Origin: Saccharothrix espanaensis DSM 44229
GTDB taxonomy: Bacteria > Actinomycetota > Actinomycetes > Mycobacteriales > Pseudonocardiaceae
Reading direction: 5' to 3'
DNA: 64,000 bases
Assembly (NCBI RefSeq): GCF_000328705.1
Contig: NC_019673.1
Coordinates: 4,092,001 to 4,156,000, forward strand
The translations under genes were made by a program, and so were the position numbers. A model generated the notes under the pieces. The model saw only the letters and a program-made list of their open reading frames with translations, made no database searches and was not told the origin of the DNA. Shown piece by piece: positions 13,313 to 52,357 of this stretch; the first letter of the stretch is position 1; each line of letters opens with the position of its first letter.

Positions 13313-13355
13313 AGCGTCACACGGCGAGGCGGCCCGTGGCAGGGACCTAAGTCAC
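13313..13355 (-). promoter_or_regulatory. Putative DevR-type box and -10 for the Cys-rich gene
   Basis: GGGACCTAAGTCAC (13342-13355 on the plus strand) is an imperfect palindrome close to the mycobacterial DevR/DosR consensus GGGACTWWAGTCCC. Reading toward the gene, its centre is about 31 nt before GACGCT (13318-13313), which is 7 nt before the start codon. The same spacing recurs at two other genes in this window. Confidence 0.5.
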
Positions 13356-13715
13356 TGCGGGGCACGAAAGAGCCGGGAAAGCCACGGAAAGTCAGCGGTT
13401 CCCGGGGTGCAGACCGGGAAAGCCGAGCGGGGTTCACAGTCCCACCGCAACGACACCTCGCCACGCCGCGAATCGTGGCCCGTCAGGTCCAGGTGCGGGG
13501 CGTCGCGGGTGAACGCCTCGGCGACCAGCGCCGGATCGGCTGCCGCGCCGTCGAAGCCGCCACCGCCGCGCCCACTTGACTTCCAGCGTCGCCCGCTGAC
13601 CTGCCGGCACACCGAGCAGCACGGCCCGCTCGTCGCCCGTGGTGGGGCCGTCGAACCTGGTGTCCCGGGCGAACAACTCGGCTCTGCGCCGCCTTTCGAC
13701 CATGTCCGCGATCAT
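13352..13715 (-). pseudogene. DUF664/DinB-like protein relic, frameshifted
   Basis: Two minus-strand frames carry complementary pieces. The upstream one has RFDGPTTGDERAVLLGVPA and QRATLEVKW, the start of DUF664/DinB proteins. The downstream one has AFTRDAPHLDL and RRGEVSLRW, the middle of the same family. The joining region is Arg-rich noise, and the C-terminal part with the HxxxH-like metal residues is missing. A frameshift plus deletion explains this. Confidence 0.45.
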
Positions 13716-13812
13716 GCCCGCCCGCCCTGGCGACGGTCAGTGCACCCGGTTCACCCGAACGTGCAAGCGTGTCCGGGATGTGGGAAGGCCGTTCCGCCAG
13801 ATCGGAGCACCC

Positions 13813-13828
13813 TACGCTCGCGATCGTG
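13813..13828 (+). promoter_or_regulatory. Leaderless promoter of the oxygenase/transport operon
   Basis: TACGCT (13813-13818) ends 7 nt before GTG 13826, and there is no Shine-Dalgarno. The arrangement predicts a transcript starting at or next to the start codon. It is also the reason for choosing this start over the in-frame ATG upstream. Confidence 0.5.
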
Positions 13829-14851
13829 AGTTCCCCGACCGCCCGCGCACTGCCGTTGATCGACATCTCCCGCTTCCGCGGCCCCGCCGCCGACCGCTCC
13901 GCGTTCCTCGCCGACCTGCGCCGCGCGGCGCACGAGGTCGGGTTCTTCTACGTCGTCGGGCACGGCGTGCCGGAGGAGCTGACCTCGGGCATCTTCGCCG
14001 TGGCGCGGGAGTTCTTCGCACTGCCGCTGGAGGACCGGCTCGCCGTCGAGAACCTCCGCTCGCCCCAGTTCCGCGGCTACACCCGCACCGGGCACGAGTA
14101 CACCGGGGGAGTGCCGGACTGGCGCGAACAGCTCGACATCGGCCCCGAACGAGCGGTCTTGGAGGTCGGCACCGGCGAACCGCTGTGGCGGCGGCTGATC
14201 GGGCCCAACCAGTGGCCCGGGGGGCTGCCCGCGCTGCGCACGACGACGTTGGCGTGGCAGGCCGAAGCGCTGCGGGTCAGCCGCGAGGTGCTGCGCGCGC
14301 TGGCCGCCGCGCTGGGCCAGGACGAGGGCTACTTCGACACCTGGTTCGACGAGGAGGCCTCGACCCACGTCAAGATCGTCCGCTACCCCGGGCGGCCGGC
14401 CGACGACGTCGACCAGGGCGTGGGCGCGCATAAGGACTACGGCTACCTGGCGCTGCTGCAACAGGACGACGTCGGCGGACTGCAGGTGCAGGCGGCCGAC
14501 GGCGGCTGGATCGACGCCACCCCGGTCCCCGGCAGCTTCGTGGTCAACATCGGCGAGATGCTGGAGATCGCCACGCAGGGCTACCTCACCGCGACCCGAC
14601 ACCGGGTGGTCAGCCCGCCCGCCGGGGTGGAGCGGTTCTCCGTGCCGTTCTTCCTGGGCCCCAGGCTGGACGCCGTGGTGGAACCGCTGGAACTGCCCGC
14701 CGACCTCGCGGCCGGGGCGCGCGGCGTGAGCCAGGAGGCGGACAACCCGCTGCACGCGGCGTTCGGCGACAACGCGGTGGTCGGCTGGCTGCGCTCGCAC
14801 CCGGAGGTGGCGCGGCGCTGGTGGGCCGACGTCGTGGCGGAGCGCGGATGA
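13826..14851 (+). CDS. 2-oxoglutarate/Fe(II) oxygenase, isopenicillin N synthase-like
   Basis: This 341-aa protein has the N-terminal DIOX_N domain (LPLIDISRF, EVGFFYVVGHGV) and a C-terminal 2OG-Fe(II) domain. The iron triad is GAHKDYG (His and Asp) plus ATRHRV (distal His), and the 2-oxoglutarate-binding Arg lies in VERFSVPFF. Length is usual for this superfamily. It opens a ten-gene overlapping run and is coupled to the sulfhydrylase (ATGA overlap). Next to a peptide-type importer it probably hydroxylates or cleaves an imported small molecule. The substrate is not known. Confidence 0.85.
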   Translation: MSSPTARALPLIDISRFRGPAADRSAFLADLRRAAHEVGFFYVVGHGVPEELTSGIFAVAREFFALPLEDRLAVENLRSPQFRGYTRTGHEYTGGVPDWREQLDIGPERAVLEVGTGEPLWRRLIGPNQWPGGLPALRTTTLAWQAEALRVSREVLRALAAALGQDEGYFDTWFDEEASTHVKIVRYPGRPADDVDQGVGAHKDYGYLALLQQDDVGGLQVQAADGGWIDATPVPGSFVVNIGEMLEIATQGYLTATRHRVVSPPAGVERFSVPFFLGPRLDAVVEPLELPADLAAGARGVSQEADNPLHAAFGDNAVVGWLRSHPEVARRWWADVVAERG

Positions 14852-16134
14852 GCGGCTGGTCGTTCGACACGCGGCAGGTCCACGCGGGCGCCCGGCCCGA
14901 CCCGGCGACCGGGGCGCGGGCCACGCCGATCTACCAGACGACGTCGTTCGCGTTCGAGGACGCGAACCACGCCGCCGAGGTGTTCGCGTTGCGGGACTTG
15001 GAAAGCCACGCCTACACGCGGTTGTCCAACCCGACGACGCTGGTGGTGGAGGAGCGGATCGCCGACCTGGAGGGCGGGGTGGCGGCGGTCGCCGTGGCCA
15101 GCGGTCAGGCCGCGACGACGTTGGCGCTGCTGAACATCGCGCGCGCCGGCGACCACGTCGTGTCCTCCGCCGCGCTCTACGGCGGCACGTACAACCTGCT
15201 CGCGTACACGTTCGCCGACCTGGGCATCACGGTCGACTTCGTGCGCGACCCGGACGACCTGGCCGCGTGGCGGGCCGCGGTCCGGCCCGAGACCAAGGCG
15301 TTCTACGCGGAGAGCGTCGGAAACCCGCGCGGGAACGTGCTGGACGTGGCGGCGGTCGCGGACGTGGCGCACCAGGCCGGCGTGCCGCTCGTGGTGGACA
15401 ACACGGTGCCGACGCCGTACCTGTCCCGGCCGTTCGAGCACGGCGCGGACATCGTCGTCCACTCCACCACCAAGTTCCTGTCCGGTCACGGCAGCGGCAT
15501 CGGCGGCGTCGTGGTCGACGGCGGCCGGTTCGACTTCACCGCCGACCCGGCGCGCTGGCCGCAGCTCAACGAACCCGACCCGAGCTCCCACGGCCTGGTG
15601 TTCGGGCAGGAGTTCGGCGACGTCGGCTACAGCCTGCGGCTGCGCACGAAGCTCGTGCGGGACCTGGGTCCGGCGGTGTCGCCGTTCAACAGCTTCCTGC
15701 TGTTGCAGGGAATCGAGACGTTGTCGTTGCGGCTGGACCGGCACGTGGCGAACGCGCGGGCGGTCGCCGAGTGGCTCGCCGACCAGCCGCAGGTGACCGA
15801 GGTGCACTACGCCGGCCTGCCCGACAGCCCGTGGCACGACGCCGCGAAGCGCTACCACCCGCTGGGGGTCGGCGCGATCGTGTCGTTCGAGCTGGCGGGC
15901 GGGGTGGCGGCGGGGCGGCGGTTCGTGGACCGGGTGGAGCTGTTCAGCCACCTGGCCAACATCGGCGACGTCCGCAGCCTGGCGATCCACCCGGCGTCCA
16001 CCACGCACGCGCAGCTCACCCCGGACCAGCAGGCGGCCTCCGGCGTGACGCCCGGCCTGATCCGGCTGTCGGTGGGCATCGAGGGCGTCGGCGACCTGAT
16101 CGCCGACCTGCGCCGGGGCCTCGCCGATGGGTGA
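14848..16134 (+). CDS. O-acetylhomoserine/O-acetylserine sulfhydrylase-type PLP enzyme (MetY/Cys-Met family)
   Basis: This 428-aa Cys/Met metabolism PLP enzyme starts [10 protein letters not shown] and has TPIYQTTSF. It carries [12 protein letters not shown] and [11 protein letters not shown] with the PLP Asp, and [16 protein letters not shown] with the Schiff-base Lys. The C-terminal [16 protein letters not shown] and [10 protein letters not shown] are landmarks of MetY-type gamma-replacement enzymes. It would make homocysteine or cysteine from an acetylated amino acid and sulfide, in the cytosol. Placed between an oxygenase and a transporter with a flavin-monooxygenase-like gene, it may capture sulfide or a thiol released from an imported organosulfur compound. 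Confidence 0.85.
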
Positions 16135-16948
16135 GTTCCGGGTGGGTGGGTTCGCGGGCCGCACCGGGAAGGTCCACTTCGGACAGTGGGTGCCGGTCGA
16201 CCCGCACGCCGCGGTGGTCTTCTTCCACGGCTTGGGCGAGCACATCGGCAGCTACGAACCGCTGGCGGCGGCTTTGAACGCCACCGGGTTCGCGTTCTGG
16301 GCGCACGACCACGCCGGGCACGGCCGCAGCGAGGGCGAACGGGTCCTGGTCGAGTCGGTGGACGACCTGCTGGACGACGCCGAGACGTTGCTCGACCTGG
16401 CCCGCGCCCGGCACCCCGGCCTGCCGGTCGTCCTCGCGGGCCACTCGCTGGGCGCGACCGTGGCGGCGCTGCTGACCGCGGAACGCTTGCTGGGCACGGG
16501 GAAAGCGCCCGCCGCGCTGGTGCTGACGGGTGCGTCGCTGCTGCCCGAGGCGTCACCGCTGGAAGCGCTGCTCGCCTCCGGCGTCGACCCGTGGGACCTG
16601 CGCAAGGACCCCGGCGAGATGACCCGGCACACCGGCTACGCCGAGCAGCTCCGCAACGACCCGCTGACGTGGCAGGGCGGCCTGCGCCGGGAAACCCTGC
16701 GGGCGCTGACCGAGGCCGCGCCGCGCACGCACGCCGCCGTGCCGAAGCTGGACCTGCCGGTCCTGCTGCTGCACGGCGCGGAGGACGACCTCGCCCCCGC
16801 GACGAGCGCCGCCCGCGCGGCCGACGTGCTGCCGGACGCGCGCCTGGCGGTCTTCCCCGAGGACCGGCACAACATCCTGAACGAGATCGACCGCGACGAG
16901 GTGCACCGCGTCTTCGCCGATTTCGTCGCCCAGCACACCCGCGGCTGA
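16127..16948 (+). CDS. Monoacylglycerol lipase-like alpha/beta hydrolase
   Basis: This 273-aa cytosolic serine hydrolase has VVFFHGLGEHIGSYEPLA, the HGxxEHxxRY-like signature of the monoacylglycerol lipase/lysophospholipase group. The elbow GHSLGATVAAL is near residue 107, the Asp lies in LLLHGAEDDLAP, and the catalytic His is in FPEDRHNILNE. It overlaps the sulfhydrylase by 8 nt. In this operon it may hydrolyse an ester or amide in the imported substrate. Confidence 0.8.
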   Translation: MGEFRVGGFAGRTGKVHFGQWVPVDPHAAVVFFHGLGEHIGSYEPLAAALNATGFAFWAHDHAGHGRSEGERVLVESVDDLLDDAETLLDLARARHPGLPVVLAGHSLGATVAALLTAERLLGTGKAPAALVLTGASLLPEASPLEALLASGVDPWDLRKDPGEMTRHTGYAEQLRNDPLTWQGGLRRETLRALTEAAPRTHAAVPKLDLPVLLLHGAEDDLAPATSAARAADVLPDARLAVFPEDRHNILNEIDRDEVHRVFADFVAQHTRG

Positions 16949-17000
16949 CACCGACGCCGAGACCGACGCCGAGACCGACACCGACGCCGGCACTGACGCT
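16949..17000 (+). repeat. Short degenerate tandem repeat between operon genes
   Basis: Six-base units ACCGAC/GCCGAG alternate (ACCGACGCCGAGACCGACGC and onward) through the 73-nt gap before the binding-protein gene. It is a minisatellite-like tract that could vary in length between strains. Confidence 0.6.
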
Positions 17001-17021
17001 GACGCCGCACCGAGGAGAACC

Positions 17022-18581
17022 ATGCGACGCCTTGCCAGGATCCCGGCCGCCCGGATCGCCGCGTCCGTGATCGCGGTGTCCCTGTTCGCCGGGGCGTGCG
17101 GCACCGGCGGGGCGGTCGACCCCGGCGCGGTGACCGCGAACCAGGAGGCAACACCGCCCGACGACCGGCTGGACCTCGACGCCGCCGTCGACGTGCGGCT
17201 GGTGCTCGAACCGACCGGCCTCGACCTGTTCTCCACCGCCGGCGCGGCGCTCGACCAGGTGTTGCTGGACAACGTCTACGAGGGCCTGCTGTCGGTCGAC
17301 ACCGACGACAACGACAAGATCGTGCCCAGGCTCGCGTCCTCGCACGAGGTGTCGCCGGACGGCCTGACCTACACCTTCCACCTGGTGCCCGGCGCGAAGT
17401 TCCACGACGGCACGCCGCTCACCTCGGCCGACGTGGCGTGGTCGCTGGAACAGCAGTTCGCGCCCGGTTCGAAAGCCGTCTACGCGGCCGACTTCGCCTC
17501 CATCGCCTCGGTCGCCGCACCCGACCCGGCCACCGTCGTGGTCACGCTCAAGCAGCGGGACACGTTCCTGCTGTGGAACCTGACCCAGCGCGGCGGCGCG
17601 GTCTACCGCAAGGGCACCGACTCCGCCTCGCTCGCCGGCACCGCCAACGGCTCCGGTCCGTTCACGCTGACCCGGTGGAACCGGGGCGCCTCCATCACGT
17701 TGAGCCGCAACGGCGACTACTGGGGCGCGCGGCCGAAGGTGGCGAAGGTGGTCTTCCACTACATCCCGGAACCCAACGCCGCCAACAACGCGCAGCAGAC
17801 CGGCGAGACCGACGTCCAGACGGCGGCCGACCCGACGCTGCTCCAGCCGTTCACCGGGGACGGCTACACGATCCTGCGCGGCACCACGACCGACAAGTTC
17901 ACGTTGGCGTTCAACGGCACCCGTGCGCCGTTCGACAACCCGGACGTGCGTCGCGCGATCCGCCAGGCGATCGACAAGCAGGACGTGATCAAGGCGGTGG
18001 GCGCGGGCACCGCGATCGGCAGCGCCGTCCCGCCGCAGGACCCGTGGTACGAGGACCTGACCGCGATCGACGCCCACAACCCCGACAACGCCCGGAAGCT
18101 CTTGGCCGGCGCTGGCTTCCCGAACGGTCTGGAGCTCACGCTCACCGTGCCCTCGTTCTACCCGCGCGCGATCGGCGACGTGCTGGTGTCGAACCTGAAG
18201 GACGTCGGGGTGACGCTCGCCGTCAAGCAGGTCGAGTTCCAGACCTGGTTGTCGCAGGTCCACCGGGACAAGGAGTTCCAGCTCAGCCTGGTCGACCACG
18301 CCGAGGCGCGGGACCTGGTCAACTACACCAAACCCGACTACTACTTCGGCTACGACGACGAGCAGGTCCGGCAGTGGTACGCGCAGGCGCGCACCGCGTC
18401 GGGCGACGGCGAGCGGGACGGCCTGCTCAAGCGGGTGGCGCGCAAGATCTCCGAGGACGCCGCCACCGACTGGCTGTTCCTCGACCAGACCCACACGGTG
18501 GTGCGCAAGGGCGTCTACGGCGTGCCGAAGGCGGAAACGAGCAACCGCTACGACCTCGCGTCGCTCGCGGTGGCCAAGTGA
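17022..18581 (+). CDS. ABC transporter substrate-binding lipoprotein, peptide/nickel family 5
   Basis: This 519-aa protein starts after GAGGAGAA. A signal peptide ends in the lipobox LFAGACG, with the lipid-modified Cys near residue 26. The mature part is a family 5 solute-binding protein: LDNVYEGLLSVD, RLASSHEVSPDGLTYTFHL, KFHDGTPLTSADVAWSLEQ, NGSGPFTLTRWN, and VRRAIRQAIDKQDVI. It sits on the outer face of the membrane and delivers peptides, metal chelates or other small ligands to the permeases that follow. The ligand cannot be read from the sequence. Confidence 0.9.
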   Translation: MRRLARIPAARIAASVIAVSLFAGACGTGGAVDPGAVTANQEATPPDDRLDLDAAVDVRLVLEPTGLDLFSTAGAALDQVLLDNVYEGLLSVDTDDNDKIVPRLASSHEVSPDGLTYTFHLVPGAKFHDGTPLTSADVAWSLEQQFAPGSKAVYAADFASIASVAAPDPATVVVTLKQRDTFLLWNLTQRGGAVYRKGTDSASLAGTANGSGPFTLTRWNRGASITLSRNGDYWGARPKVAKVVFHYIPEPNAANNAQQTGETDVQTAADPTLLQPFTGDGYTILRGTTTDKFTLAFNGTRAPFDNPDVRRAIRQAIDKQDVIKAVGAGTAIGSAVPPQDPWYEDLTAIDAHNPDNARKLLAGAGFPNGLELTLTVPSFYPRAIGDVLVSNLKDVGVTLAVKQVEFQTWLSQVHRDKEFQLSLVDHAEARDLVNYTKPDYYFGYDDEQVRQWYAQARTASGDGERDGLLKRVARKISEDAATDWLFLDQTHTVVRKGVYGVPKAETSNRYDLASLAVAK

Positions 18582-19543
18582 CGTGGTTCCTGGTGCGCCG
18601 GTCGGGGCTGCTGGTGCTCTCGCTGGCGGCGGCCAGTGCGCTGGTGTTCGTGCTGCTGCGCCTGCTGCCCGGTGACGTCGCCGCCACGATCGGCGGCCTC
18701 CAGGCCAGTCCCGAGCAGCTTGCCGCGATCCGCGCCGACCTGGGCTTGGACCGGCCGGTGGTCGCGCAGTACGCGTCCTGGCTGTCCGGTGTGCTGCACG
18801 GCGATTTCGGCCGCTCCCAGCTCAACGGCACGTCGGTGGGCGCGGAACTGGGGCGCAAACTCCAGGTGACGGCTCCGTTGACGGCCGGTGCCGTCGTCGT
18901 GGCGCTCGTCGTGGCCGTGCCGTTGGGGACGTGGGCCGCACTGCGGTCCAGGTCGTTCGTCGGCACGGGGATCAGCGCCGTGGCGCAGATCGGGATCGCC
19001 GTGCCGACGCTCTGGCTGGGCCTGGTGCTCGTGCTGGTGTTCTCGGTGCAGCTCGGGTGGCTTCCCGCGCAGGGGTTCCCGGTCGACGGGTGGGCCGATC
19101 CCGTTGCGGCGGCACGGAGTCTGGTGCTGCCGTGGATCGCGCTCGGCCTGACCGAAGGAGCGGTGCTGCTGAGGTTCGTTCGGTCGGCGGTGTTGGGCGT
19201 GCTGCACGCCGACTACGTGCGGACCGCGCGCGCCAAAGGGCTGACGCGGACGCAGGCGTTGCTGCGACACGGTGTCCGCAACGCCGCGCTGCCGGTCGTG
19301 TCGGTGCTGGGATTGCAGTTGGCAGCGTTGGTGGTCGGTGCGGTGGTGGTCGAGCGGGTGTTCACGCTGCCGGGTGTGGGGTCGATGCTGGTGACCGACG
19401 TGGGCAACCGGGACCTGGTGAAGGTGCAGGGTGAGGTGTTCCTGGTGGTGGCGGCGGTGCTGGTGATCGGGTTCGCGGTCGACGTGGCGCACCGGCTGAT
19501 CGATCCTCGGCTGATCGATCCTCGGCTGCGGGAGCCCCGGTGA
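18578..19543 (+). CDS. ABC transporter permease, DppB/OppB type
   Basis: This 321-aa protein begins with the typical N-terminal helix and FVLLRLLPGDVAA. The binding-protein-dependent transport domain spans about five more helices, with the cytoplasmic EAA-like loop ADYVRTARAKGLTRTQALLR-type sequence near residue 210. GTG 18578 overlaps the stop of the binding protein. The C terminus has an exact tandem duplication encoding LIDPRLIDPRL. It forms the transmembrane channel with the next permease. Confidence 0.9.
   Translation: MTWFLVRRSGLLVLSLAAASALVFVLLRLLPGDVAATIGGLQASPEQLAAIRADLGLDRPVVAQYASWLSGVLHGDFGRSQLNGTSVGAELGRKLQVTAPLTAGAVVVALVVAVPLGTWAALRSRSFVGTGISAVAQIGIAVPTLWLGLVLVLVFSVQLGWLPAQGFPVDGWADPVAAARSLVLPWIALGLTEGAVLLRFVRSAVLGVLHADYVRTARAKGLTRTQALLRHGVRNAALPVVSVLGLQLAALVVGAVVVERVFTLPGVGSMLVTDVGNRDLVKVQGEVFLVVAAVLVIGFAVDVAHRLIDPRLIDPRLREPR
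19493..19528 (+). repeat. Tandem duplication inside the permease 3-prime end
   Basis: The 15-base unit CTGATCGATCCTCGG occurs twice in direct succession, followed by a third partial copy (CTGCGGG). In frame it duplicates LIDPR without shifting the reading frame. Confidence 0.8.
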
Positions 19544-20370
19544 TCCGGGCGGTGCTGCGCAGGCCGACCGGCGTCTTCGGGCTCGCCGTGGTGGCGCTGC
19601 TGGTCGTCGGCGGTGTGGTGTCGTGGTGGTGGACCCCGTTCGACCCGCGGGCCACCGACCCGGGGCGGGCGTGGCTGCTCCCGTTGCAGCGCGGGCACCT
19701 GCTGGGCACCGACCGGATCGGGCACGACCAGTTCAGCCAGTTGATGGCGGGTGCGGGCAGCACGCTGGTCACGGCGGTGGCGTCGGCGGCGGTCGCGGCC
19801 GTGGTGGGCTTGGCGCTCGCGTTGGTCGCCGTGCTCGCGCCGCGCCCGGTCGGTGCGTCGGCGGTGGGGCTGATCGACGTGTTGGTGGCGTTCCCGACGT
19901 TGTTGCTTGCCATGGTGTTGGCGGCGGTGTACGGGAGTTCGACGGCGACGGTGGTGGCGGCGATCGGCATCGGGTTCGGCGTGGGCGTCGCGCGGGTGGC
20001 TCGGGCCGAGCTGACCTCGGTGCTGGGCAGTGATTTCGTGCTGGCGGCACGGGCCTCGGGCGCGCGGACGGGGCGGATCGTGCGGCGGCACCTGCTGCCG
20101 AACGTGGCGCCGACGTTGATCGTGCAGTTGTCGCTGGTGATGGCGCTGGCGGTGCTGGCCGAGGCGGCTCTGACCTATCTCGGCTACGGCGCGTCGCCGT
20201 CGTCCCCGTCGTGGGGCGGGATGCTGCACGAACAGCAGTCCTACATCGCGGCCCGGCCGCTGCTGGTGATCTGGCCCGGTCTGGCGGTGGCCGGTACCGT
20301 CCTGGGGTTCAACCTGCTCGGTGACGCGCTGCGCGACGCCTCGGACCCGAGGCTGGTGGCGGCGCGGTGA
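19540..20370 (+). CDS. ABC transporter permease, DppC/OppC type
   Basis: This 276-aa inner-membrane permease has an early periplasmic stretch ending HLLGTDRIGHDQFSQL, the hallmark of DppC proteins, then five hydrophobic helices. The coupling loop FVLAARASGARTGRIVRRHL and LPNVAPTLIVQ follow, with LTYLGYG near the end. It overlaps DppB by 4 nt and the ATPase by 4 nt. It pairs with DppB for substrate translocation. Confidence 0.9.
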   Translation: MIRAVLRRPTGVFGLAVVALLVVGGVVSWWWTPFDPRATDPGRAWLLPLQRGHLLGTDRIGHDQFSQLMAGAGSTLVTAVASAAVAAVVGLALALVAVLAPRPVGASAVGLIDVLVAFPTLLLAMVLAAVYGSSTATVVAAIGIGFGVGVARVARAELTSVLGSDFVLAARASGARTGRIVRRHLLPNVAPTLIVQLSLVMALAVLAEAALTYLGYGASPSSPSWGGMLHEQQSYIAARPLLVIWPGLAVAGTVLGFNLLGDALRDASDPRLVAAR

Positions 20371-21161
20371 GCCTGCTGGAGGTCTCCGGGCTGACCGTGC
20401 GGTCCGGCGGGCGGACGCTGCTGGACGACGTGGGCTTCACCGTGGAGCCGGGGGAGCGGGTCGGGCTGATCGGCGGCTCCGGCTCCGGCAAGTCGTTGAC
20501 GGCGCTGGCCGTGCTGGGGTTGCTGCCCGAGGGCATGGGGGTCGAGGGCAGCGTCCGGTTCGACGGGGTCGAGCTGGTCGGACGCGGCGACCGGGAGCTC
20601 TCGGCGGTGCGCGGCAAGCGGATCGCCATGGTGTTCCAAGAACCTCTGACGGCGCTCAACCCGTTGATGCGCGTGGGCAAGCAGATCGCCGAGCCGTTGC
20701 GGACCCACCGCGGGCTGTCCCGGAAGGCGGCGTTCGCGGAGGCGGTGCGGTTGGCGGACAAGGTCGGCCTGCCCGACCCGGAGCACACCGTGCGCGCGTT
20801 CCCGCACCAGCTCTCCGGCGGGCAGCGGCAGCGGGTCGGCATCGCGATGGCGCTGGCGTGCCGCCCGGCGCTGCTGCTGGCCGACGAGCCCACGACCGCG
20901 CTGGACGTGACCGTGCAGGCCGGGATCCTGCGGCTGCTGGCCGAACTCGTCGCCGAGGAGGGCACGGCGTTGCTGTTCATCACCCACGACCTCGCGGTGC
21001 TGGCCCAGGTCGTGCGGCGGGTGCTGGTGCTCGGCGACGGGCGACTGCTGGAAGAGGGCGTGCCGGCCGACGTGCTGCGCGCCCCGCGCCACCCCGCGAC
21101 CCGCGAACTCGTCGCGCTCGCCCGTGCCGGGTCGTTCCGGCGACAGGAGGCCCGGCCGTGA
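20367..21161 (+). CDS. ABC transporter ATP-binding protein, DppD type
   Basis: This 264-aa ATPase has Walker A GGSGSGKSLT (residues 38-47), a Q-loop in VFQEPLTALNPLMRVG, signature LSGGQRQRVGIAMAL, Walker B LLLADEPTTALDV and the H-loop ITHDLAVL. The final APRHPATRELVAL is the short oligopeptide-type C-terminal tail. Overlaps on both sides give the order B, C, D, F, so it is one of the two nucleotide-binding subunits of this importer. Confidence 0.9.
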   Translation: MSLLEVSGLTVRSGGRTLLDDVGFTVEPGERVGLIGGSGSGKSLTALAVLGLLPEGMGVEGSVRFDGVELVGRGDRELSAVRGKRIAMVFQEPLTALNPLMRVGKQIAEPLRTHRGLSRKAAFAEAVRLADKVGLPDPEHTVRAFPHQLSGGQRQRVGIAMALACRPALLLADEPTTALDVTVQAGILRLLAELVAEEGTALLFITHDLAVLAQVVRRVLVLGDGRLLEEGVPADVLRAPRHPATRELVALARAGSFRRQEARP

Positions 21162-22705: not shown

Positions 22706-27911
<5,206 letters not shown>

Positions 27912-42132: not shown

Positions 42133-42138
42133 GAGCGG

Positions 42139-43173: not shown

Positions 43174-43225
43174 TGACGTGTCGGCGCGACCGCGTCGGGG
43201 ACGTTCGAGGGCCGGGGGTCACGTC

Positions 43226-43942: not shown

Positions 43943-43997
43943 CGACCCACAGATTTCGGCACGCCGTCGGAGCGTGCCGTCGGGGAGGTATTTGCAA

Positions 43998-45515: not shown

Positions 45516-45526
45516 CCACAGCCTCC

Positions 45527-45567
45527 GGCGCGGCGTTCTTCTTGTACATCAAGGAGAACGCCGCGCC
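45527..45567 (+). terminator. Strong hairpin terminator
   Basis: GGCGCGGCGTTCT (45527-45539) pairs perfectly with AGAACGCCGCGCC (45555-45567), 12 nt after the TAP-like hydrolase stop. Confidence 0.85.
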
Positions 45568-45587
45568 GCTGGTTCACCGCCGCTGGT

Positions 45588-46010
45588 TCACCGCTCTCGG
45601 TCGCACGGGTCGGCTTCGGCGGTCGTCTTGAGGTCCTTCAGCCAGGTCTCCAGCCCCAGGTCGGAGTTCTCGTCGGCCTGGGGCCCGACGGGGTAGCCGG
45701 GGCCGTCGGCGGGGCTGCCCCAGCGGACGCACCGGCCGTGCTGGAGCCGCCGGACGGTGGAGGTGATCACGACCGTGCCGGGCGGAGCGGGAGGGGCGGA
45801 CGGGAGCCGGATGGTCGCGCGGAACCGCGAGTGCTGGCGCAGCGGGCCCGGGTCCAGCCGCTCGACGGTCATCGGGGCGGCGGGGTGCTGCCAGGAGGGC
45901 CGGTCCTCCACGTCGGTGTGCAGGTCCCAGACGGTGCGCAGCGGCGCCTCGATGAGGGTCTCGGCGCGGTAGCGGGCCTTGGCGTTGGGGTCGACACCTT
46001 GGCCTGAGCG
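45588..46010 (-). pseudogene. SRPBCC (START-like) protein, 5-prime truncated and internally deleted
   Basis: The minus-strand frame reads ARYRAETLIEAPLRTVWDLH, TDVEDRPSWQHPAAPMTVER and RATIRLPSAPPAPPGTVV, the first half of an SRPBCC domain. It then jumps from VRWGSPADGPGYPVG to the C-terminal helix LGLETWLKDLKTTAEA, missing about 60 residues in between. No start codon in this frame fits before the similarity merges into the opposite-strand transposase relic near 46010. The gene was evidently cut when that element inserted or recombined. Confidence 0.6.
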
Positions 46011-46300
46011 GCCCGAGTCCGGTGGACGGGGGCAAGCCCGGCTCGAAGATCCACGCGATGAGCGACCGTGGCGGCATTCCGCCGACCGTGGTGGTCTCGG
46101 CGTCCAACCGCAACGACCACCTGCTGCCGGAGACCGTGGTCGACGTCGTCGCCCCAGTCACAGGACGCGTCGGCCGGCCTCTTCCGGCGACTGGCGCGCC
46201 GCTACGAAACGCAAGGCCGCCCACTTCACGGCGTCCGCCCAGCCGGCCTGCGCGGTGACCTGCTACCGCCGAGCCGACAAGCTCTCGATGTGCTGACTCA
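46010..46300 (+). mobile_element. IS5-family transposase relic
   Basis: The plus strand encodes VDGGKPGSKIHAMSDRGGIP followed by VVSASNRNDHLLPETVVD, the central DDE region of IS5-type transposases (consensus DRGKxGSKxHxxxD...SAANxHDS). Further on LARRYETQ and, in another frame, FTASAQPACAVTCYRRADKL correspond to the C-terminal YERxAxxxxAFxxxACxxxCxRxL segment. A frameshift and two deletions have destroyed it. No terminal inverted repeats were found. Confidence 0.6.
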
Positions 46301-46393
46301 GCACATCTCCGGATGAGAGCCGGTCTTCGGCAGCCGGACCTCGCCGACTTCGTGGCGTTCGGGTGCGGCCGATCGGGTTCACCAGGCCGGGTG

Positions 46394-46897
46394 ATGGGGT
46401 ACTCGTCGCAGGTGAGCGAATCCGAGCAGTCGGACCAGCGCCGGCTGGCCCGCAACTTCAACGAGCTGCTGCAAGAGTTGCGGGTGGCGCAGGCGGGTGT
46501 GCAGATCCTGTTCGGGTTCCTGCTGTCCATCGCCTTCACCGACCGGTACGCGGCGGCGGACTCCTACGTCCGCGTCACGCACATGATCACGATCCTGTTC
46601 TCGGCCGGGGCCGTCGCGTTGTTGACCGCGCCCGCCGCGTGGCACCGGATCCTGTTCCGGAAGGGGCGGCGCGAGGACATCATCGACGTGGCGAACCGGT
46701 TCGCCATCGGTGGCCTGGCGTGCCTGGCGGTCGCGATGACCGGAACGATCCTGTTGCTGGGCGAGGTCGTGGTGGGCGGGTGGGCGGCGATCGTGCTCGG
46801 TGCGGTCGCCGCGGTGTTCTTCGCCTCGCTGTGGTTCCTGCTGCCGTGGCGGGAACGCGGCGTGGACACCGTCGACTCCGACGACGGTCCGGCTTGA
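46394..46897 (+). CDS. DUF6328 family membrane protein
   Basis: This 167-aa protein begins with a cytoplasmic helix RRLARNFNELLQELRVAQAG and goes straight into VQILFGFLLSIAFTDRYAAA, the signature start of DUF6328 proteins. Three more hydrophobic helices follow (THMITILFSAGAVALLTAPA, GLACLAVAMTGTILLLGEVV, WAAIVLGAVAAVFFASLWFL). ATG 46394 fits the family; a GTG lies one codon before. Function of the family is unknown. It precedes the phytoene-desaturase-like gene by about 100 nt. Confidence 0.8.
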   Translation: MGYSSQVSESEQSDQRRLARNFNELLQELRVAQAGVQILFGFLLSIAFTDRYAAADSYVRVTHMITILFSAGAVALLTAPAAWHRILFRKGRREDIIDVANRFAIGGLACLAVAMTGTILLLGEVVVGGWAAIVLGAVAAVFFASLWFLLPWRERGVDTVDSDDGPA

Positions 46898-47000
46898 CGG
46901 CCGGGCCGCCGGTGCCGGCGTGGGCGCGCCGGGTGCCCCCAGGTCGGGCAGGCTCGGACCTGACGGGACGACGGACCGGGCAGCGAGGTCGGGAGGCGTG

Positions 47001-48587
47001 GTGAGCGAGTACGACGCGGTGGTCGTCGGGGCGGGGCCCAACGGCCTGGTGGCGGCGAACCTGCTGGCCGACGAGGGCTGGAGCGTCCTGGTCCTGGAGG
47101 CCGCCGCCGAGCCCGGCGGTGCCGTGCGCACGGCGGAGATCACCGCGCCCGGCTTCCGCAACGACCTGTTCAGCGCCTTCTACCCGCTCGGCGTGGCGTC
47201 CCCGGTGCTGCGCGGCCTGGGGCTGACCGACTACGGCCTGACCTGGGTGCACGCGCCCGAGGTGCTGGCCCACGTCTTCCCGGACGGGCGGACCGCGCTG
47301 CTGTCGCGCGACCTGGAGCGGACCGCCGAGTCGGTCGGCGCGTTCGCCCCGGGCGACGCGACCGCGTGGCGGGCGGAGTTCGAGCGGTGGCGGCGCGTCC
47401 GCGACGACCTGCTGGGCGCGGTGCTCCGGCCGTTCCCGCCGGTCCGCCCGGGTCTGCGGTTGCTGCGTGGGCTCGGCGCGTCCGACGCGCTGCGGTTCGC
47501 GCGGATGGTCGCCCAGCCCGTGCGCGCGTTCGGCGACGAGCGGTTCGCCGGCGACGGGGCGAAGATCCTGCTGGCCGGCAACGCCCTGCACACCGACCTG
47601 GGGCCGGACCACGCGGGCGGCGCGGTGTTCGGCTGGTTGCTCGCGATGCTCGGCCAGGACGTCGGCTTCCCGGTCCCTCAGGGCGGCGCGGGCGAACTGG
47701 CGCGCGCCTTGGTGCGCCGGCTGGACGCGCGCGGCGGCCGGGTGGAGTGCGGCAGGCCGGTCAGCCGGGTGGTCGTGGCCGACGGCCGGGCGCTCGGCGT
47801 CCGGGACGCCCACGGCGAGTTCGTGCGGGCCCGCCGCGCCGTGCTCGCCGACGTGCCCGCGCCGCCGCTCTACCTCGACCTCGTGGGACCCGACCACCTG
47901 CCCGCGCGGCTGCTCGACGACCTGGACCGCTTCCACTGGGACGACGCCACGATCAAGGTCGACTGGGCGTTGTCCGGTCCGGTCCCGTGGCTGTCCGAGG
48001 ACGCCCGCCGGGCGGGCACCCTGCACCTGGGCACGGACCTGGACGGCCTGGCCGACTTCGCCAACGACCTCGCCTGCCGGCGCGTGCCGCGCACCCCGTT
48101 CCTGCTGCTCGGCCAGATGACCACCACCGACCCCACCCGCTCGCCGGCGGGCACCGAGTCGGTCTGGGCCTACACCCACGTGCCGCGCGGCGACGCGTGG
48201 TCGGCCGACCGGCTGCGGGAGCGGGCCGACCTGGTGGAGCAGGTGGTCGAGCGGCACGCGCCGGGCTTCCGGGACCTGGTGCTGGCCCGGTCGGTGAGCG
48301 GTCCGGCCGAGTTGCGGGCGCGCGACCGCAGCCTGGACGGCGGCGCGATCAACGCCGGCACCTCGGCCGTCCACCAGCAACTGGTGTTCCGGCCGACGCC
48401 GGGGCTGTCCCGCGCGGACACCCCGATCGACCGGCTGTTCCTGGCGAGCGCGTCCGCCCACCCCGGCGGCGGGGTGCACGGCGCGTGCGGTGCGAACGCG
48501 GCCCGCGCGGCGCTCGCCCGGCACGGTCACGCCGGTGGCGCGTACCGGGCGGTGGTGGGCGCCCTCCAGCGGGCCCTCTACCGCTGA
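47001..48587 (+). CDS. NAD(P)/FAD-dependent oxidoreductase, phytoene desaturase-like
   Basis: This 528-aa flavoprotein starts YDAVVVGAGPNGLVAANLLA (Rossmann GxGxxG) followed by VLEAAAEPGGAVRTAE, as in CrtI/amine-oxidase-type proteins. NALHTDLGPDHAGGAVFGWL and VPQGGAGELARALVRRLDAR follow in the middle. The C-terminal FAD-contact end is LFLASASAHPGGGVHGACGA. It is the actinobacterial CrtI-like group often called pyridine nucleotide-disulfide oxidoreductase domain 2. GGGAGG precedes two GTG codons, of which 47001 has better spacing. There are no carotenoid genes nearby, so the substrate is unknown. Confidence 0.82.
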   Translation: MSEYDAVVVGAGPNGLVAANLLADEGWSVLVLEAAAEPGGAVRTAEITAPGFRNDLFSAFYPLGVASPVLRGLGLTDYGLTWVHAPEVLAHVFPDGRTALLSRDLERTAESVGAFAPGDATAWRAEFERWRRVRDDLLGAVLRPFPPVRPGLRLLRGLGASDALRFARMVAQPVRAFGDERFAGDGAKILLAGNALHTDLGPDHAGGAVFGWLLAMLGQDVGFPVPQGGAGELARALVRRLDARGGRVECGRPVSRVVVADGRALGVRDAHGEFVRARRAVLADVPAPPLYLDLVGPDHLPARLLDDLDRFHWDDATIKVDWALSGPVPWLSEDARRAGTLHLGTDLDGLADFANDLACRRVPRTPFLLLGQMTTTDPTRSPAGTESVWAYTHVPRGDAWSADRLRERADLVEQVVERHAPGFRDLVLARSVSGPAELRARDRSLDGGAINAGTSAVHQQLVFRPTPGLSRADTPIDRLFLASASAHPGGGVHGACGANAARAALARHGHAGGAYRAVVGALQRALYR

Positions 48588-49021
48588 TCGCCGTGCACGA
48601 CCAGGTCGGCCAGCCGCTTGAGGGTCTCCCTGTTGCGGGGCACCAGCAAGGCCGCCTGCACCCGTTCCGGCAGCAGGCTGCCCGGCCCGCTGACGGCCTT
48701 CTCGCGCATGGTGACCCTGGTGCCGCCGTCGGCGGCGGGCGCCAGGTCGAACCGGATCCAGGCGGCACCGACCGGCCACAGCTTGGCGTCCAGCTCCAGT
48801 GACTTGCCCGCCTCGACCGCGCGCACCACAGTCTCGTCCTCGATCTGTAGCGGCCAGGCACCGACGCTGTGCCGGATGCGCGTGCCGACCTCGGGCCACG
48901 CGCGGTCCACGTCGCGGATGTGCGTCGCGCCGACCACCCAACCGGCGTAGGACCACCCGTCGGCCAGTACCTCGAAGATCCGGTCGGGTGAACGGGGGAT
49001 GTCGAGTTCGACCTTCGCCAT
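48578..49021 (-). CDS. SRPBCC family protein
   Basis: This 147-aa intact START-like domain reads MAKVELDIPRSPDRIFEVLA, then WSYAGWVVGATHIRDVDRAW, VGAWPLQIEDETVVRAVEAG, and a final helix RVQAALLVPRNRETLKRLAD. Such proteins bind hydrophobic ligands. Its 3-prime end overlaps the oxidoreductase gene by 10 nt in convergent orientation, leaving no room for a terminator. In many actinomycetes this SRPBCC type sits beside the CrtI-like gene, suggesting a shared lipid or isoprenoid substrate. Confidence 0.85.
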   Translation of the reverse strand: MAKVELDIPRSPDRIFEVLADGWSYAGWVVGATHIRDVDRAWPEVGTRIRHSVGAWPLQIEDETVVRAVEAGKSLELDAKLWPVGAAWIRFDLAPAADGGTRVTMREKAVSGPGSLLPERVQAALLVPRNRETLKRLADLVVHGDQR

Positions 49022-49225
49022 GACCCTGGGTACCCCGCTCGTCGGTCCGGAATCCGGTTCGTCGGCACGATTCGTCCCGGGTGGACCCAGCGTGGGTCCG
49101 GCCCGTCGCGGCGGCGTGGGATTGCACCCGGACAGGTGGATTCGGCACGCCCGACGCGGTGCAGGGCGGCGGTCGGACGCCGGCACTGCCGGGCGCGGCC
49201 GGGCACGGCGGCCGACAATCGTGGC

Positions 49226-49441
49226 ATGGGTGACAAGGAACTGCACAAGGGAGACGAGGTCGCGTGGTCCAGCCACGGGCAGACGGTGCACGGTGAGGTG
49301 GTCGAGAAGATCACCGAGGACACCGAGGCCGCCGGCAGGCAGGTCCGCGCGTCGGAGGACGAGCCGCAGTACCGGGTGCGCAGCGACAAGAGCGGCAAGG
49401 ACGCCGTGCACAAGCCGAGCGCGTTGAAGGACGACTCGTGA
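49226..49441 (+). CDS. Tudor-like (hypervirulence-associated HVA1-type) small protein
   Basis: This 71-aa protein reads LHKGDEVAWSSHGQTVHGEV, VEKITEDTE, then QYRVRSDKSGKDAVHKPSAL. The GDxVxWxSHGxxVxGxV start and YxVxSDKSGxxAxHKPxAL end are the signature of the HVA1/DUF2945 Tudor-like domain. It is coupled to the DUF3140 gene by a GTGA overlap, a pairing common in actinomycetes. The role is unknown; binding to nucleic acid or modified protein is a guess from the fold. Confidence 0.85.
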   Translation: MGDKELHKGDEVAWSSHGQTVHGEVVEKITEDTEAAGRQVRASEDEPQYRVRSDKSGKDAVHKPSALKDDS

Positions 49442-49746
49442 GCGAGGACTTCGACGAGGCGGTGAACATGACGGCGGCCGAGTTGGAACGCTGGCTGGCG
49501 ACCGACGAGTCCAAGTCCGCCGGCCAGTCCGAGGGCGGCGAGTCGGTCGGGCACGCGTCCGGCAGGCACATCGTCAAGGTGCTGCGGAAGAAGAAGGCCG
49601 AGTTGACCGACGACGACCACGCCCACATGCGCAAGGTCGTCGGCTACGTCCACCGGCACCTCGCACAGCGGCCCGACGGCGATGTCGAGCACACGAAGTG
49701 GCGGTACTCGTTGATGAACTGGGGACACGACCCGTTGAAGAAGTGA
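49438..49746 (+). CDS. DUF3140 family protein
   Basis: This 102-aa protein has DEAVNMTAAELERWLATDES, SVGHASGRHIVKVLRKKKAE, then DHAHMRKVVGYVHRHLAQRP, and ends RYSLMNWGHDPLK. These are the landmarks of DUF3140, a small helical actinobacterial protein. GTG 49438 overlaps the HVA1-like stop. Charged, soluble and without a signal peptide; a nucleoid or stress role has been guessed for the family, but none is established here. Confidence 0.85.
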   Translation: MSEDFDEAVNMTAAELERWLATDESKSAGQSEGGESVGHASGRHIVKVLRKKKAELTDDDHAHMRKVVGYVHRHLAQRPDGDVEHTKWRYSLMNWGHDPLKK

Positions 49747-49930
49747 CGCTGCGGCTTTCGCTTTCGCGAGACGGTCGCGCGTCGACACGTTGAGTGACGA
49801 CGGCGGTCCTGCGTCCACACACGGGAGGGAAGAATCCACCGTGTCAGGTGATTCGGCCGTGGACGAATGGCGGGCATCGGCAGGTGGTGCGTGTACTTGA
49901 GTCCGTTGATCACGCACTGATCAGGAGGCA

Positions 49931-50221
49931 ATGGTGAGGTCGTTCGTGGCGAGGATTTCGGCAGTGGGCATGGCTCTGGTGGTCGCGGGTTTCCTGGCAC
50001 CCCAGGCAGCCACGGCGTCCGCAGCGCCGCGCAGCTTCTCCGACTGCATGGACATCGCCGTCGAGCACGACGCCGACGTGTGGATCGCCCACGACGCCTG
50101 CGAGTCCACCTCCATCACGGCCTGCTACCGGATCTTCCGCGACGAGTACGGCCGGCAGGAGTGGGCCCTGCGCGCCTGCAAGGCCCGCGACGACCAGCGC
50201 TCCGACGCCTCGGCCAGCTAG
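49931..50221 (+). CDS. Small secreted Cys-containing protein (96 aa)
   Basis: ATG 49931 follows AGGAGGCA. A signal peptide (SFVARISAVGMALVVAGFLA) ends near ASA. The mature 60-residue part has four cysteines (FSDCMDIAVE, AHDACESTS, ACYRIF, LRACKARD), enough for two disulfides, and is rich in Asp and Arg. No family is recognised. Its stop overlaps by 4 nt the end of the convergent zinc-ribbon gene. Confidence 0.75.
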   Translation: MVRSFVARISAVGMALVVAGFLAPQAATASAAPRSFSDCMDIAVEHDADVWIAHDACESTSITACYRIFRDEYGRQEWALRACKARDDQRSDASAS

Positions 50222-51252
50222 ATCAGGGACGGGTAGCGGGAGTTCCACAGGTCGTCGTAGACGGCGCGCAGCCAGGGTTCGCGGACGGCGGGCAGGCGGG
50301 CCAGCGTGTGGAGGAGGGCGTCCGGGTACGGCCGGACCCACCGCCACTCGCGCGTCGGCGGCGGGTCGTCGCGGAGGAACTCGCGGGGCAGTCCGCCGGT
50401 GGCCGGGATCAGCGGTCCCGGGTGGAAGGCCAGGGTGGTCCACAGGCCGGCAGCCACCGGGACCGCGGTCGCGGCACCGGGCGGTCGCCACGGCCGGCCC
50501 GTGCGCGGGTGCCGGGGCACCAGGACGATGTCGGCGGTGTCCTGGGCGGGTAGGCCGGGGCCGGCCAGGGTCGCGACCTTCGCCGGTCCCGCCGGCGGCA
50601 GCACCTCCAGCACGGTGCCGAAGGAGTTGGCGACGACCCCGTCCGGGACGGTCACCGGCATGCCCGCCGATGCCGCCAACAGGTGGGCCAGCGCGACCCC
50701 GGCCTCGACCTCCAGCCGCGCGGTGTCCTCCTCGAACGGCTCGACGGGTCGCGTCACGGTCGCCCAGTCGGGTGTCGGGCCGGCCGGGGTACCTGTGGGC
50801 GTGCGGCGGACGGCGCCCGGTACCAGCCACGTGGCCTGCCACAACGAGCAGTCGTCGATGCGGGTCGCCACCACTCGCCCGCAGTCCGCGCACGCCAGGT
50901 TCGGGCCGGTGCGCCCGTCGAGCCCGCAGCAGCGGCCGTCGAGGCGCGTCGGGATCAGGACGGTGCCCCGGGTGTCGCCCGGCGCGACCACGATCGCCCC
51001 CGGCGCGCCCGTGGACAGGGCGTGGACCGGGGCGAACACGCCGCGTGCCGCCGCCTCGCCCGGCTCCAGCCCGCTCCACGGCCGCCACGGCGCGCCGGAC
51101 GGTGCCGGGTCCACGGCGTAGGTCCCCGCTTCCACGAGCGGCGGCAACGCCACACCGTTGCCGTACGCGCGGTGGGCGTGCTCGGGCAGCGCAACCCGCG
51201 TCACCGGGACGGTCAGCGCGGCCCCGCACCCGGCGCACTCGAACACCACCAC
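50218..51252 (-). CDS. Zinc-ribbon hypothetical protein (344 aa)
   Basis: GTG 51252 (the first of three consecutive GTG codons) follows GGGGGGAT. It begins VVVFECAGCGAALTVPVTRV, a CxxC knuckle. The middle has GRCCGLDGRTGPNLACADCG, a second CC...CxxC site, so a structural zinc site is likely. The C-terminal half is Pro-rich with WRWVRPYPDALLHTLARLPA near the end. It is a cytoplasmic protein without helices long enough for membranes. Similar hypothetical proteins occur in actinomycetes; function is unknown. Confidence 0.7.
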   Translation of the reverse strand: MVVFECAGCGAALTVPVTRVALPEHAHRAYGNGVALPPLVEAGTYAVDPAPSGAPWRPWSGLEPGEAAARGVFAPVHALSTGAPGAIVVAPGDTRGTVLIPTRLDGRCCGLDGRTGPNLACADCGRVVATRIDDCSLWQATWLVPGAVRRTPTGTPAGPTPDWATVTRPVEPFEEDTARLEVEAGVALAHLLAASAGMPVTVPDGVVANSFGTVLEVLPPAGPAKVATLAGPGLPAQDTADIVLVPRHPRTGRPWRPPGAATAVPVAAGLWTTLAFHPGPLIPATGGLPREFLRDDPPPTREWRWVRPYPDALLHTLARLPAVREPWLRAVYDDLWNSRYPSLI

Positions 51253-51357
51253 GGATCCCCCCAAGGTAGGCAGCCCTCGAACATATCCCGGCACGGCACA
51301 GGTGGACAAACGATTTAGGTGCGCGGGCCGAGGGGTCAGCCGGGTGGCGTGGCGGGG

Positions 51358-52026
51358 TCAGCCGTTCTCGCGGGTCGACGGGTCCGGCTTGCGCAGGCGG
51401 GTGGCGAGGACGGCGGCCTGGGTGCGGCGTTCGAGGCCGAGTTTGGCCAGCAGGTGGGAGACGTAGTTCTTGATGGTCTTCTCGGCGAGGAACATCTGCT
51501 CGGCGATCTGGCGGTTGGTGAGGCCGCGTCCGATGTGGTCGAGGACGACGCGTTCCTGTTCGGTGAGCATTCGGACGGGGTCGCCGTGTTCGCGTTCGCG
51601 GCGGATGCGGTTGAGCAGGGCGGAGGTGGAGCGGGCGTCGAGCAGGGATTCGCCGGCGGCGACGGTGCGGACGGCGGAGACGAGGTCGGTGCCGAGGATG
51701 CGTTTGAGGACGAAGCCGGAGGCGCCGGCCATGATGGCGTCGAACAGGGCTTCGTCGTCGGTGAAGGAGGTGAGCATGAGGCATTTGAGGTCGGGCAGCA
51801 GGGAGCGCAGTTCGCGGCACAGTTCGATGCCGTTGCCGTCGGGCAGGCGGACGTCGAGCACGGCGACGTCGGCTCGGCTGCCGGGTACCCGGGCCAGGGC
51901 TTCGGCCACCGATCCGGCCTCGCCGACCACGTCCAGGTCGTCCGCGCTGTTCAACAGCTCGCGGACCCCGACCCGGACCACCTCGTGGTCGTCCACGAGG
52001 AACACCTTCGCGCCCATCTCAGCCAT
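51358..52026 (-). CDS. DevR/DosR-like NarL-family response regulator
   Basis: This 222-aa protein has a receiver domain [20 protein letters not shown] with phospho-acceptor Asp58 ([19 protein letters not shown]), [20 protein letters not shown] and the conserved Lys in [10 protein letters not shown]-terminal LuxR helix-turn-helix follows, [20 protein letters not shown] then [20 protein letters not shown]. This closely follows the layout of mycobacterial DevR, including the TxxTIKNYVS recognition helix. ATG 52026 follows GGGAGG. A 45-aa membrane protein is encoded just upstream. The likely partner is the DevS-like kinase at 26.2 kb; likely targets carry the GGGACCT-type box. Confidence 0.9.
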
Positions 52027-52055
52027 CATGCCTCCCACGATCAGCGTATGGGGTG

Positions 52056-52193
52056 TCACCGGCGCGCGTGACGCCCGGTCGGGCGGGGACGCCGCAGCGC
52101 GACGACTGCCAGGGTGGTCGCCGACGTGATCGCGAGCACGCCCGCCGCCGCGTGCGGTACCAGGCCGTGGTCCAGTCCGAAGTACCAGCTCAT
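52056..52193 (-). CDS. Small membrane protein (45 aa) upstream of the DevR-like gene
   Basis: ATG 52193 lies 6 nt after GGGAGGAG. The protein reads [20 protein letters not shown], then [18 protein letters not shown] and a basic end GRHARR, a single transmembrane helix with the basic tail in the cytoplasm. Codon bias is gene-like. It stops 29 nt before the regulator start, so the two are probably cotranscribed. No family is recognised. It could be a small modulator of the sensor system or merely a leader gene. Confidence 0.6.
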
Positions 52194-52357
52194 CCTCACT
52201 CCTCCCGCCGTCCATTGCGCCATCCGGGCGATCTGCTGAACGCGGTCTTTGGTCCTCGATCGGCCGGGACCTACGGCCGCTGCCGGCGTGCCGGCGGGCG
52301 CTTAGCGTCGGTGTTGTCGGCGCGCGCGCAGCGCTGTCTTCGGAAAGGATTGGGCTC
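52194..52357. promoter_or_regulatory. Divergent regulatory region with DevR-type box
   Basis: GGGACCTACGGCC (52267-52279) has its centre 31 nt before TAGCGT (52304-52309), placing it near -43 of the stress-protein transcript, the usual site for DevR activation. Just upstream GGTCCT (52252-52257) forms a partial inverted repeat with GGGACC (52267-52272), the same 6-9-6 arrangement as at 26165-26185. The region also serves the divergent regulator operon. Confidence 0.55.

Follow-up and report, generated by a model that had tools for sequence, protein, structure and literature searches.

Do the palindromic boxes in a stretch of the Saccharothrix espanaensis DSM 44229 chromosome belong to a regulon of the DevR (DosR) type, and which regulator would serve them? 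The window, i.e., the whole stretch analyzed here, comprises 64,000 nt (bases 4,092,001–4,156,000 of a genome assembled into one contig with 9,360,653 bp; coordinates refer to the window unless stated otherwise). It holds such boxes upstream of the genes for a universal stress protein (usp1), an Acg-family oxidoreductase (acg1) and a Cys-rich protein, together with genes for a DevS-like kinase (devS1) and a DevR-like regulator (devR1). We compared 25 Saccharothrix genomes, S. espanaensis (G000) included; the suffix 1 denotes the window copy of a gene and the suffix 2 the copy at 6.29 Mb. Our reading, which we hold with a probability of roughly three in four, is that the three boxes are DevR-type sites, and that this genome has two devR clusters whose devR genes were homogenized by conversion and would provide one pooled regulator for two kinases. 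The original prediction stands as far as the sequence goes, and its interpretation is supported in part. The regulon is of a known kind; the homogenized regulator is the new part.

The boxes are present where the original prediction had placed them, with a shift of one nucleotide in one case: GGGACCTACGGCC starts at 52266 on the plus strand (previously given as 52267), GGGACCTTCGACC at 26170 on the minus strand and GGGACCTAAGTCAC at 13342 on the plus strand. To score them, a matrix with the consensus CAGGGACCTTCGACCGTG was trained on 75 sites from 69 regions upstream of acg, devS, devR and usp in the other genomes of the genus; its seed motif was picked after initial inspection of the relatives' sites, and part of the training sites are spurious, as the training cut-off was low. 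Among all sites in the 64 kb, the primary box of the acg promoter (TAGGGACCTTCGACCGTG, 26155–26172, minus strand) ranked first with 26.9 bits, followed by the primary box of the usp1 promoter (CCGGGACCTACGGCCGCT, 52264–52281, plus strand) with 15.2 bits and the box of the Cys-rich gene (CAGTGACTTAGGTCCCTG, 13340–13357, minus strand) with 13.6 bits. Under a first-order Markov null, 64 kb would contain 0.00 sites with ≥21 bits, 0.44 with ≥15 bits and 2.03 with ≥12 bits. The acg box occurs in all 17 acg promoters compared, and the usp box recurs at −93/−94 from usp in three relatives (G003, G011, G021). Both primary boxes are accompanied by a secondary box 23 bp upstream. The one at acg (26178–26195, plus strand) is weak alone, with 8.5 bits, and comparable sites exist at the same distance in several relatives. 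The one at usp1 (52241–52258, minus strand, 11.8 bits) lies between devR1 and usp1 and has counterparts at −116/−117 in the same three relatives.

A common spacing between the boxes and −10-like hexamers had been claimed as well, at about 31 nt. The spacing is identical in the three promoters, the centres of box and hexamer being 33.0 nt apart (a gap of 21 nt). The hexamers are TAGCGT for usp1 (52303–52308, plus strand), GACAGT for acg1 (26128–26133, minus strand) and GACGCT for the Cys-rich gene (13313–13318, minus strand). The same 33.0 nt were found at the promoter of a CBS-domain gene adjoining devR2, and 33.0 and 34.0 nt at two promoters adjoining a third DevR-like system described below. 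Of 17 acg promoters, 16 read GACAGT, CACAGT or GATAGT at the acg offset; of nine usp promoters, eight read TAGCGT (seven) or TAACGT (one) at the usp offset; the boxes for this count were hand-picked, and the nine are those with a primary box among 12 usp copies (G000b, G001b and G022 were excluded). Searching the 9.36 Mb for box and hexamer jointly, GGGACN4GNCC-N(18-28)-TAGSGT gave two matches, one next to each of devR1 and devR2 (reversed control: one). GGGACN4GNNC-N(23-25)-TANCGT, a pattern fitted to known sites, gave four, all near DevR-like systems (reversed control: none), and the two additional ones precede the cytochrome bd genes and an ATP-binding cassette (ABC) transporter gene near the third system. 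With 33 nt to the −10 element, the primary box therefore covers the −35 region. This agrees with the published DevR promoters of M. tuberculosis, whose start-proximal box likewise overlaps the −35 element and whose further site takes part in cooperative binding (PMC3029386). For the Cys-rich gene, the geometry predicts a leaderless transcript starting at or adjoining the GTG at 13306.

Could the three boxes be chance matches to a GC-rich palindrome, with no regulon in the window at all? A genome-wide count of loose forms of the motif went in favor of that possibility. The loose motif GGGACCTWNGNCC had ten matches in the genome vs 13 for the reversed pattern, and two further loose forms stayed below their reversed controls (61 vs 82 and 66 vs 130). 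Motif frequency thus gives no support, and position and conservation have to carry the case. Several other observations also weigh against our reading of the promoters: the box at 13340, taken alone, is close to the chance expectation for 64 kb; acg2 of S. espanaensis has GAATGA in place of the hexamer, the sole exception among the 17; the hexamer spacing of the Cys-rich gene is 3 nt longer in G011; and GACAGT and GACGCT are devoid of the leading T typical of a −10 element. As to position, seven of the ten loose-motif matches are no more than 26 kb away from a DevR-like gene, of which there are three (binomial 4e-11, the 26 kb having been chosen post hoc). The success of a matrix built from other genomes, the conserved position of boxes and hexamers, the secondary boxes and an orthologous box in G011 all disfavor chance, which we consider very improbable as an explanation for the three boxes together. 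Conservation rejects it for the acg and usp boxes, and does not do so for the one at 13340. Judged by its sequence, the acg box is beyond doubt, and the case for the usp box is strong when taken together with its conservation. The box at 13340 needs its conservation in G011, where the orthologue of the Cys-rich gene has a perfect 18-bp palindrome (CAGGGACTTTGGTCCCTG, 19.8 bits) at the matching place within upstream DNA that has otherwise diverged from S. espanaensis. We take this box as real and its −10 hexamer as likely.

The two signaling proteins are of the predicted kinds. devS1 (26247–27911, plus strand) encodes a GAF-GAF-HisKA_3-HATPase kinase of the DevS/DosT type according to Pfam and solved DevS domains. 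The five best solved chains for its GAF-A domain (E 1e-56 to 3e-48) comprise four named DevS plus 2vzw, which we take to be DosT. In all 21 kinases examined, including devS1, the histidine of an HPPM motif aligns with the heme histidine of DevS (presumably the proximal ligand H149), and all 21 have a glycine at the place of DevS-E87, which we assume to be the DosT-like state. devR1 (51358–52026, minus strand) encodes a NarL-type response regulator of the DevR/DosR/OsdR type with Response_reg and GerE domains (Pfam). Its best solved match is M. tuberculosis DevR (PDB 3c3w, E 9.8e-84), and the runner-up, a different regulator, follows at 8.9e-40. The recognition helix, KTxKNYVS, aligns with KTVKNYVSRLLAKLG of M. 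tuberculosis DevR and is conserved; we presume these residues to be important for recognition. The NCBIfam labels MadS for the kinase and MadR for the regulator were dismissed, as both scored below cut-off (96.6 of 500 and 177.7 of 300).

The regulon had been described as dispersed. A better description is that the genome has a paralogous pair of DevR clusters and that the window contains one of them, divided into two parts; the main regulon cluster is located at 6.29 Mb. There, devR2 (at 6,290,800) encodes a protein 97% identical to that of devR1 and is surrounded by a second devS, acg and usp and by more boxes. The devS, acg and usp paralogue pairs have 80–83.5% DNA identity. Between devR2 and devS2 lies a gene for a NaeI-type restriction endonuclease (L041:13472-14377, minus strand), and the cluster also holds a piece of devS (L042:7144-7356) with 84% DNA identity over 213 nt, probably the remnant of a further kinase copy. 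A third DevR-like system is found at 135 kb. It consists of a regulator with 63% identity and a single-GAF kinase, and paired boxes with an identical or almost identical geometry at genome positions 127,317–127,357 (L043:9317-9357) and 130,521–130,559 (L043:12521-12559) precede cytochrome bd oxidase genes (cydAB) and the ABC transporter gene. This system, the 6.29-Mb cluster, the secondary boxes and the lack of a proximal box at devR1 (see below) had been overlooked.

The third system raises the question of whether another NarL-type regulator, such as the one near cydAB, is the main protein to bind the boxes in the window. Its boxes share the geometry and its regulator is related, as just described. 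However, the proximal boxes at 135 kb deviate in the right half-site (GGGACCGTCGTACC), and across the genus the boxes recur next to devR and devS, which co-occur. We regard a different main regulator as improbable, if less so than chance boxes. devR was detected in 18 of the 25 genomes and devS in the same 18 (thresholds 1e-90 and 1e-100, respectively). In the other seven (G005, G007, G009, G016–G019) both fell below these thresholds, as if the pair had been gained or lost together.

The likeness of the two devR genes was unexpected. devR1 and devR2 share 97.3% DNA identity over 669 nt, a stretch that coincides with the open reading frame (ORF) to within one base. Fourfold-degenerate sites differ at 6 of 139 positions in devR, vs 118 of 302 in devS, 51 of 159 in usp and 42 of 158 in acg, a comparison that presumes joint duplication of these genes, which the trees test only partly. 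Within the devR pair, the differences are unevenly spread, with 9 of 42 sites in the 5′ end (columns 9–54) and 7 of 615 in the rest. MaxChi placed a break at column 56, at a strength reached by none of 5000 permutations. The alignment hence shows an abrupt switch in likeness near codon 18, and the remainder of devR1 (51361–51972, minus strand) would represent a conversion tract nearly identical to devR2.

One explanation without recombination is unusually strong purifying selection on both protein and codons. DevR is conserved between species, with 86–92% protein identity. Yet third positions of devR are 71% identical between genomes (median) vs 95% between devR1 and devR2, and the fourfold-degenerate sites given above set devR apart from devS. 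These synonymous sites rule out purifying selection as the cause of the identity, and we give it practically no credence.

In the trees of the individual genes, usp1 groups with the usp of G011, G021 and G003 (support 100/99), and a clade of usp1 and usp2 was rejected in the approximately unbiased (AU) test (p-AU 0.009). Gene order is in line with the usp tree: these three genomes and S. espanaensis share a locus, here called locus A, in which devR adjoins usp together with genes for a phosphoketolase (xfp) and an acetate kinase (ackA). devR1 itself groups with devR2 (100/100), and its placement with devR of G011, G021 and G003 was rejected (p-AU 3.6e-5).

Similar patterns exist elsewhere in the genus. 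Five genomes have at least two devR copies, and in four of them the copies are mutually nearest. In three of the five (G000, G008, G023), copies reside at loci that predate the divergence of the species. The devR genes G008b and G023b adjoin the same sulfate-permease (SulP) and ArsR genes, a block with 83% DNA identity over 1961 nt in whose G008 version two small genes intervene. These two devR copies are 98.8% and 97.4% identical to the other copy in their own genome vs 86.5% to each other, and a clade uniting them was rejected (p-AU 0.0005). In G023, fourfold-degenerate sites differ at 10 of 139 positions in devR vs 108 of 303 in its two devS genes. For G023 (p 0.0006) and G008 (p 0.03), MaxChi placed the break at the 3′ end. 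Beyond the genus, nine of 80 loci came from four multi-copy genomes, with a mixed picture. In Lentzea nigeriaca, one devR copy is 91.5% identical to that of L. aerocolonigenes vs 91.3% to its partner; in L. kentuckyensis two copies are mutually nearest (91.3% vs at most 85.8%) and a third is nearest to L. aerocolonigenes (92.8%); the Actinokineospora pair has 84.9% identity. As a separate observation, a second cluster in G011 (L118) appears decayed, with a devS-like stretch containing three stops, a partial devR and a partial usp.

The most serious alternative accepts the boxes and explains the likeness of devR1 and devR2 by recent duplication of a piece of DNA the size of the ORF, instead of conversion between old copies. 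It gains from the high-identity stretch ending at the ORF in G000 (669 nt) and G008 (656 nt), from G023 (793 nt), which is compatible with it, and from G001, where remnants of a second devS with 92–96% DNA identity lie next to one devR, so that recent duplication is possible for this pair. Other results weigh against conversion, too. devS1 and devS2 are sisters in the devS tree (95/96), and for acg a sister relationship of the copies was not rejected (p-AU 0.097). A permutation of the longest agreeing run in the devR1/devR2 pair was not significant (0.06), and the clades for the AU tests were named after quick first trees had been inspected. The devR pair of G006 is no closer than other pairs and its copies are not clearly mutually nearest, and the break comes only at the extreme 3′ end in both G008 and G023.

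Among 21 sequences compared with the 5′ end of devR1, G011 (1 of 36 sites differing) and G021 (2 of 42) are nearest, followed by G020 (3 of 36) and G003 (4 of 42). This likeness to locus A rests on 36–42 sites, and the third-ranked G020 represents another locus. Only G011 differs between the 5′ end and the body of devR1 (Fisher 0.012, uncorrected). The body of the pair is no closer to other genomes (15.5%) than to locus A (16%). No genome is close to devR2 in the 5′ end (17–31%), and the difference between the two 5′ ends could thus reflect fast change in devR2, which a recent duplication would also allow. These comparisons therefore no more than suggest that devR1 has a 5′ end of separate ancestry.

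What speaks against duplication is the location of the genes. devR1 is part of the usp1 array common to G011, G021 and G003, all of which carry a devR in the corresponding position; two of these locus-A genomes are the nearest ones to the devR1 5′ end; the devR genes G008b and G023b occupy a common locus; and independent duplications ending at the ORF in several genomes are unlikely. We judge recent duplication to be rather unlikely, though the best placed of the alternatives. The data point to gene conversion between old copies as the source of the near-identity, with devR1 overwritten by the 6.29-Mb devR2 as the direction suggested by the simplest reading.

Conversion would not have unified the promoters. 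A devR-proximal box starting 54–74 nt upstream was found in at least 18 of 24 devR copies examined, and devR2 has one. In G021 and G024 a box in the gap between devR and usp was recorded from the usp side. devR1 has no proximal box at 54–74 nt upstream, and the nearest ones, at −232 and −255, are those of the usp pair. Thus, devR1 and devR2 probably differ in their control while encoding nearly one protein.

Taken together, these features allow a mechanism to be proposed. The DevS-type kinases, with their heme GAF domain, would sense low oxygen and phosphorylate DevR, and pairs of DevR would bind cooperatively to primary and secondary boxes and recruit RNA polymerase. The targets activated in this way would be acg, the usp-xfp-ackA array and the Cys-rich gene. 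The array would combine a stress protein with the phosphoketolase/acetate kinase route to ATP; its gene order is common to S. espanaensis and the three locus-A relatives. While the copies of kinase, oxidoreductase and stress protein diverged, conversion would have re-unified devR from about codon 18 onward, and devR1 would have kept an upstream region lacking the usual proximal box. Because the genes are nearly identical from this codon on, both clusters make nearly the same DNA-binding protein. The likely effect would be that two kinases, together with two devR genes under different control, share one pooled regulator. We see about even odds for the broader proposal that recurrent conversion keeps the devR copies of Saccharothrix alike, with kinases, targets and promoters diverging, in a network of many sensors and one regulator, comparable to DosS/DosT-DosR, in which selection holds DNA and kinase specificity. 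A feedback of acetate kinase on DevR via acetyl phosphate is speculation; Streptomyces coelicolor OsdR was phosphorylated in vitro with acetyl phosphate (PMC5069765).

Several known systems share parts of this arrangement. M. tuberculosis DevR/DosR-DevS/DosT corresponds in the types of regulator and kinase, in the paired boxes and in the proximal box over the −35 region (PMC3029386). The DosR regulon also has boxes before acg and usp genes. In contrast, S. espanaensis has two clusters, two nearly identical devR genes, a usp box heading usp-xfp-ackA, and GGGACCTTCGACC in place of the mycobacterial box, GGGAC-n4-GTCCC (targets and box of M. tuberculosis as quoted in the original prediction). In Streptomyces coelicolor, OsdR-OsdK is a non-mycobacterial DevR orthologue system whose boxes flank the gene of the regulator itself and also precede genes for Usp proteins and nitroreductases; the excerpts give the box consensus AGGGCCGATCGGCCCT, compared with CAGGGACCTTCGACCGTG in Saccharothrix, and do not describe a homogenized second regulator (PMC5069765). 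Mycobacterium smegmatis has two DosR genes per genome as well, dosR1 and dosR2, of which one was named for its closeness to dosS; the excerpted text does not describe them as near-identical (PMC6898941).

Among the titles listed in searches of the open-licence literature, none concerns homogenized regulators, which does not prove their absence. Concerted evolution by gene conversion is familiar from tuf and rRNA genes, where copies within a genome are closer than orthologues and breakpoints can be found. devR displays the same within-genome likeness in four of the five multi-copy genomes and a clear breakpoint in S. espanaensis, the difference being that it encodes a response regulator. Duplicated two-component systems and response-regulator paralogues are usually held to diverge, which insulates pathways from each other. 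In S. espanaensis, sensors and targets diverged and the regulator was apparently pulled back together, contrary to this view. If such events are recurrent, gene conversion would be a force that wires bacterial signaling, and the devR loci offer a natural test. Furthermore, the analysis provides Saccharothrix with a matrix for DevR boxes and with a promoter geometry that is fixed. It also shows that, in a soil actinomycete, a box of the dormancy type stands ahead of an array of phosphoketolase and acetate kinase genes.

The remaining genes of the window were characterized as well. acg1 (25089–26129, minus strand) encodes an Acg-family flavin mononucleotide-binding oxidoreductase (NCBIfam NF047509, 317 bits vs a cut-off of 199), whose real start is probably 50–70 nt further in. 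usp1 (52358–53227, plus strand) encodes a double-domain universal stress protein (Pfam PF00582, E 3.6e-52, two stretches). It is followed by xfp (53305–55632, plus strand; Pfam XFP_N, XFP and XFP_C) and ackA (55632–56690, plus strand; TIGR00016, 366 bits vs a cut-off of 293, and Pfam), both with inferred starts and with relatives in G011, G021 and G003. The Cys-rich protein (13028–13306, minus strand, 92 aa) was found in two of the 25 genomes, S. espanaensis included and G011 being the other (E 1e-5), and matched no Pfam family, even at a threshold of E 0.01. Upstream of devR1, an ORF of 45 aa (52056–52193, minus strand) probably encodes a membrane peptide with a likely membrane helix. An ORF of 65 aa with a similar start exists at the same place in G011, and one of 73 aa lies upstream of a devR of L. 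kentuckyensis (L159). Farther downstream, at 59481–60689 (plus strand), a major facilitator superfamily transporter resembles the Cmx/CmrA chloramphenicol exporters, with 295 of the 400 bits set as the cut-off.

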